From Halobaculum sp. CBA1158 (lineage in GTDB: Archaea > Halobacteriota > Halobacteria > Halobacteriales > Haloferacaceae): a DNA stretch of 64,000 nucleotides. The notes under the pieces are model-generated. The model saw only the letters and a program-made list of their open reading frames with translations. It had not been told where the DNA came from and ran no database searches. Every line of letters begins with the position of its first letter. Positions within the stretch are counted from its first letter, which is position 1. Position numbers and translations under genes: made by a program. Location of the stretch: contig NZ_CP090371.1 in assembly GCF_021431925.1 (NCBI RefSeq), forward strand, positions 1,364,001 to 1,428,000. The letters run 5' to 3'. Positions 1 to 5,420 of the stretch are shown piece by piece.

Positions 1-350
1 CTCGCGCCGTAGATGGCCCGAGAGAGCATGTCCTGGCCCAGCGAGTTCGTCCCGAGCGGATGCGTCGCCGTCGCGTTCACCGTGACGTTCTCGCTCACCG
101 TCTGGACGCTCCCGTTGACCATCTCGGTCGTCGTCTGTTCCTCGGTGTCGGTGAAGCCCAGCGGCGGGAGCTGTGCGTTCTCCAGGTTCTGCGTCCGCGG
201 GTTGTGCGGCGCGATCAGCGGCGCGAACGTCGCCGCCAACAGGACGACGACGACGAGCACGACGCCGACACGCGCGAGCCACGACGACCGGAACTCCGTA
301 CCGAGGTTGCGGATCGTGCGCGGCGAGATCGAGATCGGTCCGATCTTCAT
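1..350 (-). CDS. Peptide ABC transporter permease, DppC-like (truncated by window edge)
   Basis: This is the N-terminal 116 codons of an inner-membrane permease of the DppC/OppC type; the rest lies beyond position 1. A hydrophobic segment sits near residues 25-45. It is followed by HPLGTNSLGQDMLSRAIYGA, the conserved stretch found just before the binding-protein-dependent transport domain in this family. The ATG overlaps the stop codon of the DppB-like gene (ATGA), so the two are translationally coupled. With the binding protein upstream it forms a leftward peptide-uptake operon. An extracellular loop (about residues 55-90) rich in Thr and Asn is longer than in bacterial DppC. The substrate cannot be read from sequence. 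Confidence 0.9.
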   Translation of the reverse strand, partial: MKIGPISISPRTIRNLGTEFRSSWLARVGVVLVVVVLLAATFAPLIAPHNPRTQNLENAQLPPLGFTDTEEQTTTEMVNGSVQTVSENVTVNATATHPLGTNSLGQDMLSRAIYGA

Positions 351-1339
351 TCCGCCACCACCCGCGGGTCGAGATACGCGTACAGCGCGTCGACCGCGAT
401 GTTGAGCAGGACGAACCCGGTCCCGATGACGATGAGACTCCCCTGGAGGATCGGCCAGTCACGGGCGTTGATCGCGCGGATGATCTCCGTGCCCAGCCCG
501 GGCCACGCGAACACCGCCTCCGTGATGACCGCGCCGCCGATGAGCGTCCCCAGTTGGAGGCCGAGGACGGTCACCACCGGAACGAGCGTGTTTCGCAGCA
601 CGTGTTTGTAGCGGACCAGCGTCTCGGGTAATCCCTTCGCTCGCGTCGCGCGAACGTACCCCTCCGACAGCTCGTCGAGCATCCCCGACCGGACCAGCCG
701 GGTGATCAGCGCCGTGAAGTACGTCCCGAGGGTGATAGCCGGGAGGAACAGCGACGCGAGCCACGCGGTCAGGACGCCGAAGAACGGCTCCGGTCCGGTG
801 ATTGCGCGCATCGAGTCCATGAACCCGAACGCCCGCCCGCTCGTCGGGAAGACGTTGAACTCCACCGAGAACACGAGCACCAGCATGATCCCGAGCCAGA
901 AGTTCGGCGTCGAGATGCCCAGAAGCGAGAACGTCGTCGCTCCGTAGTCGGCCGGCTGGTGCCGGCGAGTCGCCGAGATCACGCCGAGCGGGATCGAGAT
1001 GACGATCGCCACGACGCTGGCGGCGACTGCGAGTTCGAGCGTCGCCGGTAGCTTCGTGAACACCTGCGTCGACGCCGGGATGCTCGAGATGTACGAGTAG
1101 CCCATGTCGCCCCGGAGCAGTCCCGCGAGGTAATCGAGGTACTGGATGTAAAACGGCTGATTCAGCCCGAGGTCCGCGGCGATCCGCTCGCGGGTCGCCT
1201 GGCTCGCGTCCAGCGGTGCGACCGTGTCGACCGGCGATCCCGGCGTGATGAATCGGAGGATGAACACGACGGTCACGACTCCCCAGACGACACCCACCCC
1301 CTGCACGCCGCGCTTCAGAAGAAAACGACCGTAGCCCAT
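347..1339 (-). CDS. Peptide ABC transporter permease, DppB-like
   Basis: This 330-residue integral membrane permease should pair with the DppC-like protein to form the channel of a peptide or nickel-type importer. The N-terminus (GRFLLKRGVQGVGVVWGVVT) is the typical first membrane helix. It is followed by the family motif PGSPVD and by GLNQPFYIQYLDYLAGLLRGD. About six hydrophobic segments are visible. The cytoplasmic EAA-like loop lies around residues 225-250 (RATRAKGLPETLVRYKHVLR). It starts 7 bases after the stop of the binding-protein gene and overlaps the next permease by four bases, so the three are one transcription unit. Length is normal for the family. Confidence 0.95.
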   Translation of the reverse strand: MGYGRFLLKRGVQGVGVVWGVVTVVFILRFITPGSPVDTVAPLDASQATRERIAADLGLNQPFYIQYLDYLAGLLRGDMGYSYISSIPASTQVFTKLPATLELAVAASVVAIVISIPLGVISATRRHQPADYGATTFSLLGISTPNFWLGIMLVLVFSVEFNVFPTSGRAFGFMDSMRAITGPEPFFGVLTAWLASLFLPAITLGTYFTALITRLVRSGMLDELSEGYVRATRAKGLPETLVRYKHVLRNTLVPVVTVLGLQLGTLIGGAVITEAVFAWPGLGTEIIRAINARDWPILQGSLIVIGTGFVLLNIAVDALYAYLDPRVVAE

Positions 1340-1345
1340 TGTGGC

Positions 1346-3001
1346 CTAGTTGGACTCGCTCGGCAGGCTCTGTGCCTCCTCGAGGAGACTGTCCAGCTCG
1401 TCGTTCTCGTAGGAGGTGAGCGCGCCGTCGCTCGAGAGGAGCGGCTGGATAGTCTGGATCGCGTCGAACGTCGCGTTGCCCCAGCCGAGCAGGTACCACG
1501 GCGGCTTGTCCTCGATGTTGCCCGTGGTCACCTGGCTGACGAGCGTCTGGAACTCGACCTGCCGGGCCGACGCCGAGACGTTGGGGAGCTGGTCGACCTG
1601 GTTGGCGACCGCCTGTGCGATCTCCACGTCACGCAGGTACCGGCCGATGGGGGTGACCAGTTCGATCTCCACGCCGGCGTGCCCGGAGTCCTCGACGAGC
1701 TGCTCGGCCTGATCGAGGTCCTGCGGGTACGGATCGAGGTCCTCGTTGTACCCGAAGAAGCCCTCGAGCGTCGGCTGGCCGGTCGGATCGCCGAACGTCT
1801 GGAGGACGTTCTCGACGATCGAGTCGAGGTCGACCGCGTAGTTGACCGCCTGGCGGAACTCCGGGGAGCTGAACGGCTCCACGTCGTACCGCATCGCGTT
1901 GAACAGGATCCGCGTCGACGGGACCGCCGAGATGCTGGTGCCGTCGTTCTCCTCGACCCGCGAGACCTCCTGGGGCGGAACGTTGACCGCGATGTCGGTC
2001 TCGTCGCTGAGGAGCCGGTTGACTCGGGTCGACGACTCCGAGGCGGAGTTGATCGTGAACGTCGAGATGGCGGCCTCGTCGTCCCAGTAGTCGTTGTTGC
2101 GCTGGAACTCGACTTCGACGCCCTGCTCGTAGTTGGAGAGCACGAACGGGCCGGTCCCCTCCATGTTCTGGTTGATGTAGGCGTCGTCGTTGCTCTCGAC
2201 CCACGACTTGTTCATGATGTCGCAGTAGGTCGCGAACGACGCGAACACGATGGGGTTGAGCCCGGTGAGGTTCACGTTCACCGTGCGGTCGTCGGTGGAG
2301 GCGACCTCCGCGCCGTCGACGCCGATGAGCTGGTCGGTCTGGGGCGACTCGATGCCGACCTCGGGGTCGACGATCCGGTTGATCGAGAACGCCACGTCCT
2401 CCGGGGTGAGCGAGTCGCCCGAGTGGAACGAGACGTTGTCGCGGACGGTGAACTGGACGGTGGTCTCGTCGAGGCGCTCGTAGTCGGTCGCGAGCTTCTG
2501 GACGATCGCGCCCTCCCGGTCGCGCTGGAGCAGCCCCTCGTACGCCTGCAGGACGATGTTGTCCGTGGGCGTCTCGCGGTGGTCCTGCGGGTCGAGCCCG
2601 GAGTCCATCTGCGACTGCGTCATCACCACGTCGTCGCCGGAGTCGGTCGCCGGCTCGATGGCGTACGCGCTCACGCGCTCGTCGGTCCGCGGCTGCCAGT
2701 CGATGTCCTCGGACTGCCCGTACACCGAGTACTGGCGGTTGAGGAACACCCACGGAGCCTGCTCGTGGACGTGGCGATTGGCGCGCTGGAGGTAGCCGTC
2801 GCGCGTCTCCGGCTCCGGCCGCTCAGTCGTCTCGGTCTCGGTGTCCGGCGTGTCGCCGTCGCCGGACGTGCCGCCGGCGCTGGTGGTCATCGTCCCCTCG
2901 GTGGAGTCGCCGTCGCCTGTACAGCCCGCGAGCGCGACCGCCGCGGTCGCCGAACCGGCCGCCTGTAGGAACCGCCGTCTACTGGTGTCCTCTTGAGACA
3001 T
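1346..3001 (-). CDS. Peptide ABC transporter substrate-binding lipoprotein (SBP family 5), apparently circularly permuted
   Basis: This 551-residue extracellular binding protein has a Tat signal (SRRRFLQAAG), a lipobox (LAGC, Cys27) and an acidic Ser/Thr-rich linker to about residue 66, so it is a membrane-anchored lipoprotein. The family 5 fold starts near residue 123 (LDPQDH, then YEGLLQRD, then FTVRDNVSFHSGD, then TPEDVAFSINRI). It runs to LDSLLEEAQSLPSES and stops there. Family members normally continue with a closing segment of the type APWVFL...YG...W.PR.DER. Here that segment (AN-HVHEQAPWVFLNRQYSV, then DIDWQPRTDER) sits at residues 70-117, before the fold. Seen directly: the order of motifs. 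Inference: a natural circular permutation. The start is supported by a TATA box 24-32 bases upstream. Confidence 0.93.
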   Translation of the reverse strand: MSQEDTSRRRFLQAAGSATAAVALAGCTGDGDSTEGTMTTSAGGTSGDGDTPDTETETTERPEPETRDGYLQRANRHVHEQAPWVFLNRQYSVYGQSEDIDWQPRTDERVSAYAIEPATDSGDDVVMTQSQMDSGLDPQDHRETPTDNIVLQAYEGLLQRDREGAIVQKLATDYERLDETTVQFTVRDNVSFHSGDSLTPEDVAFSINRIVDPEVGIESPQTDQLIGVDGAEVASTDDRTVNVNLTGLNPIVFASFATYCDIMNKSWVESNDDAYINQNMEGTGPFVLSNYEQGVEVEFQRNNDYWDDEAAISTFTINSASESSTRVNRLLSDETDIAVNVPPQEVSRVEENDGTSISAVPSTRILFNAMRYDVEPFSSPEFRQAVNYAVDLDSIVENVLQTFGDPTGQPTLEGFFGYNEDLDPYPQDLDQAEQLVEDSGHAGVEIELVTPIGRYLRDVEIAQAVANQVDQLPNVSASARQVEFQTLVSQVTTGNIEDKPPWYLLGWGNATFDAIQTIQPLLSSDGALTSYENDELDSLLEEAQSLPSESN

Positions 3002-3155: not shown

Positions 3156-5420
3156 TTATTCGTCTTCGTCCTGCGCGTCGACGACGGCCACGCCCGCGAG
3201 GTTCACGATGTCCTTCACCTCGTCGCCGCGCTGCATGACGTGGACCGGCTGGTCCATCCCGACGAGCATCGGACCGATCGCCTCCGCGCCGCCGAGGCGC
3301 TGGAGCAGCTTGTATCCGATGTTGCCCGCCTCCAGGTTGGGGAACACGAGCACGTTCGCCGGCCCGTCGAGGTCGGAGAACTCGTAGGTGTCGTCGATGA
3401 TGTCCTCGACGACGGCGGTGTCGGCCTGCATCTCCCCGTCGACGGGGAAGTCGACCTCGGGGTCGTCGTGAAGCAGGTCGACCGCCTCCCGGGGCTTGCG
3501 GGTGCCTTCGTTGTCGACGGAGCCGAAGTTCGAGTACGACAGCATCGCCGCCCGGGGGTCGATGTTGAACCGCCGTGCGAGCTTCGCCGTGTGTTTCGTC
3601 ACCTCCGCGAGCACCTCCGCGTCCGGCGACTGGTTGACGGTGGTGTCGGCGCAGAACACGACGCGGTTCTTGAACGTCAGCATGTAGACGCCGGCGACGT
3701 ACTCGGCGTCGTCGTCGGTACCGATCACCTGCAGCGGCGGCCGGAGCGCGCTCGGGTAGTGGTGTGTCAGCCCCGTGAGCAGCGCGTCGGCGTCGTCCCG
3801 CTCGACCATCACGCTCCCGAAGTAGTTCGTGTCGCGACGGATCAGCTCGCCGGCCTCCGACCGGGTGACGCCCTTCCGCTTGCGGAGTTCGTGGAGTCGG
3901 TCGGCGTACTCATCGGCCTTATCGTCCTTGTCCGGGTCGACGACCGTCGGGTCGTAGTCGAGCCCGAGGTAGTCGGTCGTCTCCTCGATGGTGTCGCGCT
4001 CGCCCAGCAGCACGGGCTCTGCGATCCCCTGTTCTTGCATCTGGTAGGCCGCGCGGATCATCTTCTCGTCGGTCCCCTCCGCGAGCGCGACGCGCTTGGG
4101 CTGCGAGCGGGCCTTGTTGAGCACGACGCGCATCATCTCCCGGCTCTTGCCCAGCCTCGCCTCCAACCGCTCGGCGTACTGGTCGGTATCGACCTCGGTG
4201 CGGGCGACGCCCGAGTCCATCGCCGCCTCCGCGACCGCGGGCGCGACCTGGAACAGCACGCGCGGGTCCAGCGGCTTCGGGATGACGTACTCGGGGCCGA
4301 ACTGCAGCGGCTGGTCACCGTACGCCTTCACGACCGCGTCGGGCACGTCCTGGCGCGCGAGGTCCGCCAGCGCCTCGGCGGCCGCGCGCTTCATCTCCTC
4401 GTTGATGTCGGTCGCGCGCACGTCGAGCGCGCCCCGGAACAGGAACGGGAACCCGAGGACGTTGTTCACCTGGTTCGGATAGTCCGAGCGCCCGGTCCCC
4501 ATGATGACGGTGTCGTCGCGGGCGTCCTTGGCGTCCTCGTAGGTGATCTCCGGGTCCGGGTTCGCCATCGCGAAGATGATGGGGTTGTCTGCCATCGACC
4601 GGACCATCTCCTGGCTGACTATCCCGCCGACCGAGAGGCCGACGAACACGTCCGCGCCCTCGATCGCGTCCGCGAGGTCGCCGCCGTCGCGTTCGCTGGC
4701 GAACTCCGCTTTGTACTCGTTCACGTCGTCGGCGGCGGCGCGCTCTTCGGTGATGATCCCAGAGGAGTCGCACATCGTGATGTTGCTCGGGTCGGCACCG
4801 AGTTCGACGTAGAACTTCGCGGACGCGATGGCCGACGCTCCCGCTCCCGAGAAGACGATGTCCAGGTCCGAGAGCTCCTTGTCGACGATGTCGGCGGCGT
4901 TGAGCAGCCCCGCGCCCGAGATGATCGCGGTCCCGTGCTGGTCGTCGTGGAACACGGGGATGTCCATCCGCTCGCGGAGGGTCTCCTCGATCACGAAGCA
5001 CTCCGGGGCCTTGATGTCCTCGAGGTTGATCCCGCCGAAGGTCGGCTCCATCGCCGCCACGGTGCGGATGATCCCCTCGGGGTCGTCCTCGTCGATCTCG
5101 ATGTCGAACACGTCGATGTCGGCGAAGCGCTTGAAGAGGACGCCCTTGCCCTCCATCACCGGCTTCGACGCCTGCGCCCCGATGTCGCCGAGGCCCAGCA
5201 CCGCCGACCCGTTCGAGACGACGCCGACCATGTTCCCCTTCGCCGTGTACTCGAAGGCCCGTTCGGGGTCCTCGTCGATGTCGCGACACGGCGCGGCCAC
5301 GCCCGGCGAGTACGCCAGCGAGAGGTCACGCTGGGTGTTCGTCGGCTTCGTCGTCGATATCTCGATCTTGCCGGGCGGGTCCGATCGGTGATACTCCCGC
5401 GCGTCGTCGTCTAGTCCCAT
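3156..5420 (-). CDS. maeB: NADP-type malic enzyme fused to a phosphotransacetylase-like domain
   Basis: The 754-residue cytosolic enzyme should decarboxylate malate to pyruvate with NAD(P)H production. Residues about 1-150 form the malic N-terminal domain ([14 protein letters not shown]; the lysine-containing [14 protein letters not shown]). Residues 160-400 form the NAD(P)-binding malic domain ([30 protein letters not shown]). Residues 420-750 match the PTA/PTB acyltransferase fold ([33 protein letters not shown]). In other MaeB-type enzymes this last domain is regulatory, not catalytic. The order and length are standard for MaeB. A plus-strand open frame opposite it is a high-GC artefact. 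It is monocistronic, with its own TATA box. Confidence 0.95.

Follow-up and report, generated by a model that had tools for sequence, protein, structure and literature searches.

Natural circular permutations of proteins are usually inferred between distant relatives, and their history is blurred. For substrate-binding proteins (SBPs) we found one natural precedent, TpMglB-2 (Tp0684) of Treponema pallidum, a circular permutant of a cluster B sugar-binding lipoprotein designated 'Type Ic / Cluster Bc', which keeps its fold and ligand-induced closure and whose authors regarded the topology as possibly linked to tethering (PMC4990184). We found none for family 5, and a search of the open-access literature yielded no paper joining circular permutation with OppA, with family 5 (cluster C) or with an archaeal or haloarchaeal SBP. 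Engineered circular permutants of binding proteins serve as biosensors, their folds being permuted or split by design (PMC6335823), whereas the permutation described here is natural. In DppA the ligand-binding residue D408 lies in domain III, and two hinge strands join domains I and III (PMC8566422).

In the haloarchaeal family 5 SBP described here the last segment of the chain has moved to the front. Permuted proteins and ordinary-order orthologues (mostly 50-67% identical) are encoded in the same operon at the same locus, in some cases within one genus, and the change has recurred. The system is a natural experiment on how far chain order matters in proteins. It opens to direct test whether binding, lobe closure and transport depend on chain order and on where the anchor sits, as well as how a permutation arises within a gene.

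The window is the whole 64,000-nucleotide stretch of Halobaculum DNA that was analysed. The gene occupies positions 1346-3001 on the minus strand and encodes 551 amino acids, as the first-pass annotation had given. The parts of the protein and the adjoining transporter genes are as follows.

2924..3001, minus strand: Tat-type signal peptide, residues 1-26 (SRRRFLQAAG...ALAG), from the sequence
2921..2923, minus strand: lipobox cysteine, residue 27 (ALAGC), from the sequence; putative lipidation site
2804..2920, minus strand: acidic Thr/Asp/Glu-rich linker, residues 28-66, from the sequence
2651..2803, minus strand: moved C-terminal segment (helix, long strand, W..R.DER), residues 67-117, from the profile of ordinary tails, orthologues, conservation and predicted elements
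2645..2650, minus strand: junction of the old C- and N-termini, residues 118-119, flanked by a short turn, from sequence alignment and model
1349..2644, minus strand: SBP family 5 body, residues 120-551, from PF00496 (E 4.4e-68) and model alignment to DppA
347..1339, minus strand: DppB-type permease, from PF00528 (E 9.4e-40) and PF19300
3..350, minus strand: DppC-type permease, incomplete because the window ends within it, from PF00528 and OppC_N

The RR motif and lipobox are present likewise in the relatives compared, and the signal peptide matches PF10518 (TAT_signal) with an E-value of 0.0019, under that model's cut-off. Judging from the ALAGC lipobox, Cys27 is the putative site of lipidation, a tether as in other single-membrane organisms. 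The DppB start codon lies 6 bases past the SBP stop codon. At locus L072 the DppC homologue is 357 amino acids long, and the ATPases DppD and DppF come next (ABC_tran plus oligo_HPY); in genome G000 the SBP gene is likewise followed by DppB, DppC, DppD and DppF homologues. The operon thus comprises an SBP, two BPD_transp_1 permeases and two oligo_HPY ATPases, the composition of a Dpp/Opp-type ABC importer, and the SBP resembles those of the DppA/OppA/NikA type in its fold, its Pfam family and its DppB-C-D-F partners. The SBP most likely serves an importer of the peptide/nickel class; the NCBIfam equivalogs for NikA, DppA, OppA and GsiB all score far under cut-off (the best, NF045468, with 133 bits against 600). 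A fused malic enzyme-phosphotransacetylase gene lies at 3156-5420 of the window (minus strand), and this gene often adjoins the transporter operon across haloarchaea.

The unusual order of the SBP is apparent from several lines of evidence. First, Pfam SBP_bac_5 (PF00496) matches residues 166-526 with 230.5 bits against a cut-off of 32.4, and the chain ends in a helix-helix loop, ...LLEEAQSLPSESN, exactly where the segment that is moved here would ordinarily begin. That segment instead starts at residue 67 with RDGYLQRANRHVHEQAPWVFLNRQYSVYGQSEDIDWQPRTDERVSAYAIEPA, and the usual start of a family 5 binding protein (LDPQDH) follows it, so that the helix-strand segment that closes the canonical cluster C order lies at 67-117. 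Second, an unguided phmmer search of the PDB matched AccA (4zec) twice in swapped order, query 166-458 to chain residues 53-347 and query 68-108 to 440-479, the second match being weak alone. Third, a tail HMM built solely from 42 C-terminal tails of unpermuted orthologues gives a single match in the protein, at residues 67-117 (87.3 bits, domain E 2e-23 for a database size of 1e6). The first-pass annotation had placed the moved segment at residues 70-117 (DNA 2651-2794); the placement stands, and its boundary is refined to 67-117 (2651-2803). Fourth, the tail profile finds exactly one copy in each of 87 distinct orthologues, in front in 45 and behind in 42. None of the permuted proteins among them has a second copy at the C-terminus, no homologue carries copies at both ends (0 of 87), a finding that had been named beforehand as telling against a permutation, and no tail remnant occurs in any frame within 300 bases 3′ of the permuted genes.

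Both segments are therefore homologous to one ordinary protein, swapped in order and present in one copy each, and the circular permutation is real. The first-pass proposal that the last segment had moved to the front is confirmed by sequence, by ordinary-order orthologues, by structure models and by the pattern of conservation. An alternative would be chance similarity, or an extra N-terminal domain on a protein whose C-terminus is simply truncated; no point was found in its support, and the 87-bit tail match, the 45 permuted orthologues and the site-by-site agreement in conservation described below refute it, leaving it a negligible probability. Chance similarity and artefact were likewise ruled out by the profile match and the permuted orthologues. 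The recurrence of the same order in many genomes, including genomes of 1-4 contigs, excludes an assembly artefact. The case is also a caution for automatic annotation, in which N-terminal 'linker' calls can conceal part of a fold.

Site by site, the moved segment is conserved much as the ordinary tail is. In a rotated alignment of 40 permuted and 38 ordinary sequences, scored by per-site entropy, tail conservation in the two forms is correlated with a rho of 0.83, which falls to 0.04 and 0.14 at one-residue shifts; for the body rho is 0.73. AlphaFold2 models the permuted mature chain with a mean pLDDT of 85.2 and a pTM of 0.78, and an ordinary orthologue with 93.3 and 0.89; the permuted model is thus the less confident (85 vs 93), with one ten-residue tail block at 61. 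The moved segment forms a helix at 7-21 and a strand at 25-37 of the permuted model, its ordinary counterpart a helix at 430-447 and a strand at 450-463, and in both the tail has equal spacing: a helix, a strand of 13-14 residues, a short strand, a one-turn helix and a short strand.

Comparison of a predicted structure with DppA, which the first-pass annotation had put forward, was made by sequential alignment with VIA-align; the sequential TM-score is about 0.7. Residues 63-490 of the permuted model match DppA (1dpp_A) 1-453 with Z 29.3, leaving DppA 454-507 and model residues 1-62 unmatched, whereas residues 6-484 of the ordinary model match the whole of DppA 1-507 (Z 37.8). The permuted model has the bilobed cluster C fold, with Z 31.2 to 1uqw_A and 29.3 to 1dpp_A over about 420 residues. 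No solved structure with the permuted order was seen among the 50 entries listed, none of which aligns before model residue 55. Taken with the conservation, these structural alignments suggest that the moved segment docks at the usual C-terminal place, and the contrary structural result that the first-pass annotation had named as a refutation did not arise. The sequence is also compatible with a domain-swapped oligomer, in which the front segment would pack against another molecule. This seems highly improbable, as the join to the first strand is just a few residues long, both old ends lie in the N-lobe, and the single-chain model is predicted with good confidence.

The position of the break determines which lobe is tethered. 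It corresponds to DppA 453/454, about 45 residues past the ligand-contacting aspartate D408; since D408 is in domain III and the break follows it, the new ends lie in the C-lobe, and predicted secondary structure places them in a loop between two helices. We take the DppA/OppA chain to re-enter domain I from domain III about 25 residues after 453. The break precedes this presumed return, and the last hinge crossing would therefore be covalent inside the moved segment. The supposition that the old N- and C-termini share a lobe proved correct, both being in the N-lobe. The suggestion that the new chain end might lie at the ligand cleft or permease face did not hold, as the end is in the C-lobe helix-helix loop and there is no evidence for a cleft or permease placement. 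With the break in this loop, the predicted lipid anchor shifts from the N-lobe to the C-lobe. Unlike DppA, OppA and NikA, then, this protein has the last helix, strand and closing segment first and its predicted anchor on the C-lobe.

The likeness to TpMglB-2 is one of kind. Both are natural permutations, within a group of related proteins, of a tethered substrate-binding lipoprotein of an ABC importer, and both retain the fold, here as predicted by the model and in TpMglB-2 together with ligand-induced closure (PMC4990184). There are several differences. First, TpMglB-2 is a cluster B sugar binder, whereas the family and fold here are those of cluster C, and the protein does not belong to Type Ic / Cluster Bc. 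Second, in TpMglB-2 the first three N-lobe strands now stand at the C-terminal end and a fourth hinge crossing is present, whereas here about 51 C-terminal residues have moved to the front. Third, the moved part shows poor similarity in TpMglB-2 (13% identity), and in the group described here it is 50-70% identical to its ordinary counterpart. Finally, in this group one operon and locus can carry either form, unlike in TpMglB-2.

A survey of haloarchaeal family 5 SBPs, also foreseen in the first-pass annotation, found the same order in dozens of genomes. Within the taxonomic family, a collinear full-length match is present in at least 31 of 170 genomes, and in many the closest match begins only at residue 117-125; in a sample of the class, the permuted order occurs in at least 43 of 391 genomes, in five families. 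Halobaculum gomorrense and Halobaculum litoreum have permuted proteins, and Salinigranum salinum, Haloarchaeobius iranensis and Halorubellus salinus ordinary ones. The order SBP-B-C-D-F is common to nearly all of the permuted and ordinary loci compared, and the malic enzyme-phosphotransacetylase gene can adjoin the operon in both forms. The same operon with the same malic-enzyme flank indicates that the two forms are orthologues at one site and not unrelated paralogues. The ordinary form lies beside maeB in G019, a genome from the window's genus, and in G102, which belongs to another genus; congeners of each carry the permuted form.

In the tree of SBP bodies, permuted sequences fall in more than one place, and a single clade of all permuted forms is rejected (p-AU 0.001; 0.0002 on another set). 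A second permuted group, confined to one genus (L082-L085, L120 and L122), is closest to ordinary relatives (54-58% identity); its identity to the main permuted group is 45-47%. A careful 67-row tree requires, on its well-supported branches, three or more changes of topology, and a one-change history is absent from every bootstrap tree; a single change of topology in the history of this gene is not possible. The SBP does not reject the main permuted group as a single clade (p 0.49); the permease-ATPase tree scatters that group further and rejects its single clade (p-AU 0.003).

How these changes came about can be read in more than one way: in detail, independent origins, reversions and the exchange of operons from one lineage to another are each possible. 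Instead of several independent permutations, a single ancient one may have been reversed, or replaced by ordinary copies, several times. The junction sequences of the two permuted groups are alike (LPEPETRE... and ...AQSLPSES vs LPEDPTRE... and ...ANNIPSGS), both well-supported clades contain the two forms in alternation, and operon exchange at the one locus is likely because of the ordinary forms beside maeB in G019 and G102, all of which would fit such a history. We nonetheless consider it rather unlikely, given the rejected single clade, the closeness of the second permuted group to ordinary relatives, and the fact that the ordinary order is the rule outside, in PDB structures and in bacterial plasmid matches (which cover residues 136-545 only); separate gains therefore make the shorter history. 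Tentatively, we propose that chain topology is an evolutionarily labile and possibly selected trait of this one orthologous gene, with three or more changes between the permuted and the ordinary order, all at the same C-lobe loop and in place within the operon, that move the anchor between lobes. A comparison of DNA microhomology between the linker and the break loop, in which loop windows rank in the top 3-10% of positions and not highest, gives a weak hint of a cause for the permutation; acidic codon composition may explain the signal.

We consider it probable that the permuted protein is the SBP of a working Dpp/Opp-type importer and that the two forms are largely interchangeable. The gene would encode a substrate-binding lipoprotein whose family 5 (cluster C) fold has had roughly its last 51 residues relocated to a place after the lipobox linker and ahead of the first strand, with the old N-lobe termini connected by a short turn and the new ends in the C-lobe loop. 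The fold, hinge crossings and binding pocket would be retained, and ligand would still be passed to DppBCDF. The single mechanical change would be that the membrane anchor pulls on the C-lobe instead of the N-lobe. The distance from cysteine to fold has a median of 39 residues in permuted proteins and 36.5 in ordinary orthologues, and a disordered linker that keeps its length of about 40 residues would make the anchor shift tolerable, so that either form might serve. Consistent with interchangeability, none of the permease and ATPase columns is confined to permuted-form operons (the lowest share in ordinary operons is 38%).

That the change recurs at one loop and is kept throughout whole genera could, however, reflect a selected advantage rather than equivalence, if anchoring by the C-lobe alters closure of the SBP or its presentation to the permease and has been favoured repeatedly. 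The three or more changes on the well-supported tree, the breakpoint, which is identical in each permuted group, the retention of the permuted form in 10 of 11 genomes of the window's genus, and the link between topology and tethering raised for TpMglB-2 (PMC4990184) speak for such an advantage. It appears unlikely when set against the lack of any permease or ATPase column that tracks permuted operons, the unchanged linker and the persistence of ordinary forms at the same locus in close relatives.

Four further arrangements were noted among these genomes. At L088 (G011, in the window's genus; also at L011), a Gln codon stands in place of the SBP stop codon at the SBP-DppB junction, and at L088 the permuted SBP and in-frame DppB form one open frame of 915 residues, through a sequencing error, a point mutation or a real fusion. 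At L064 (G020:C11:834830-836095) an ordinary, fast-evolving SBP lies beside the malic-enzyme gene in a genome that has a permuted operon elsewhere, and no permease or ATPase homologues were detected within the 11 kb examined around it. Another family 5 binding-protein gene, at G000:C1:492863-494677, has an in-frame TGA and is apparently broken. Finally, at L111 (G198) the operon is preceded, immediately upstream, by a tandem second set of permease and ATPase genes, and in such a layout SBP genes could be rearranged by unequal recombination.
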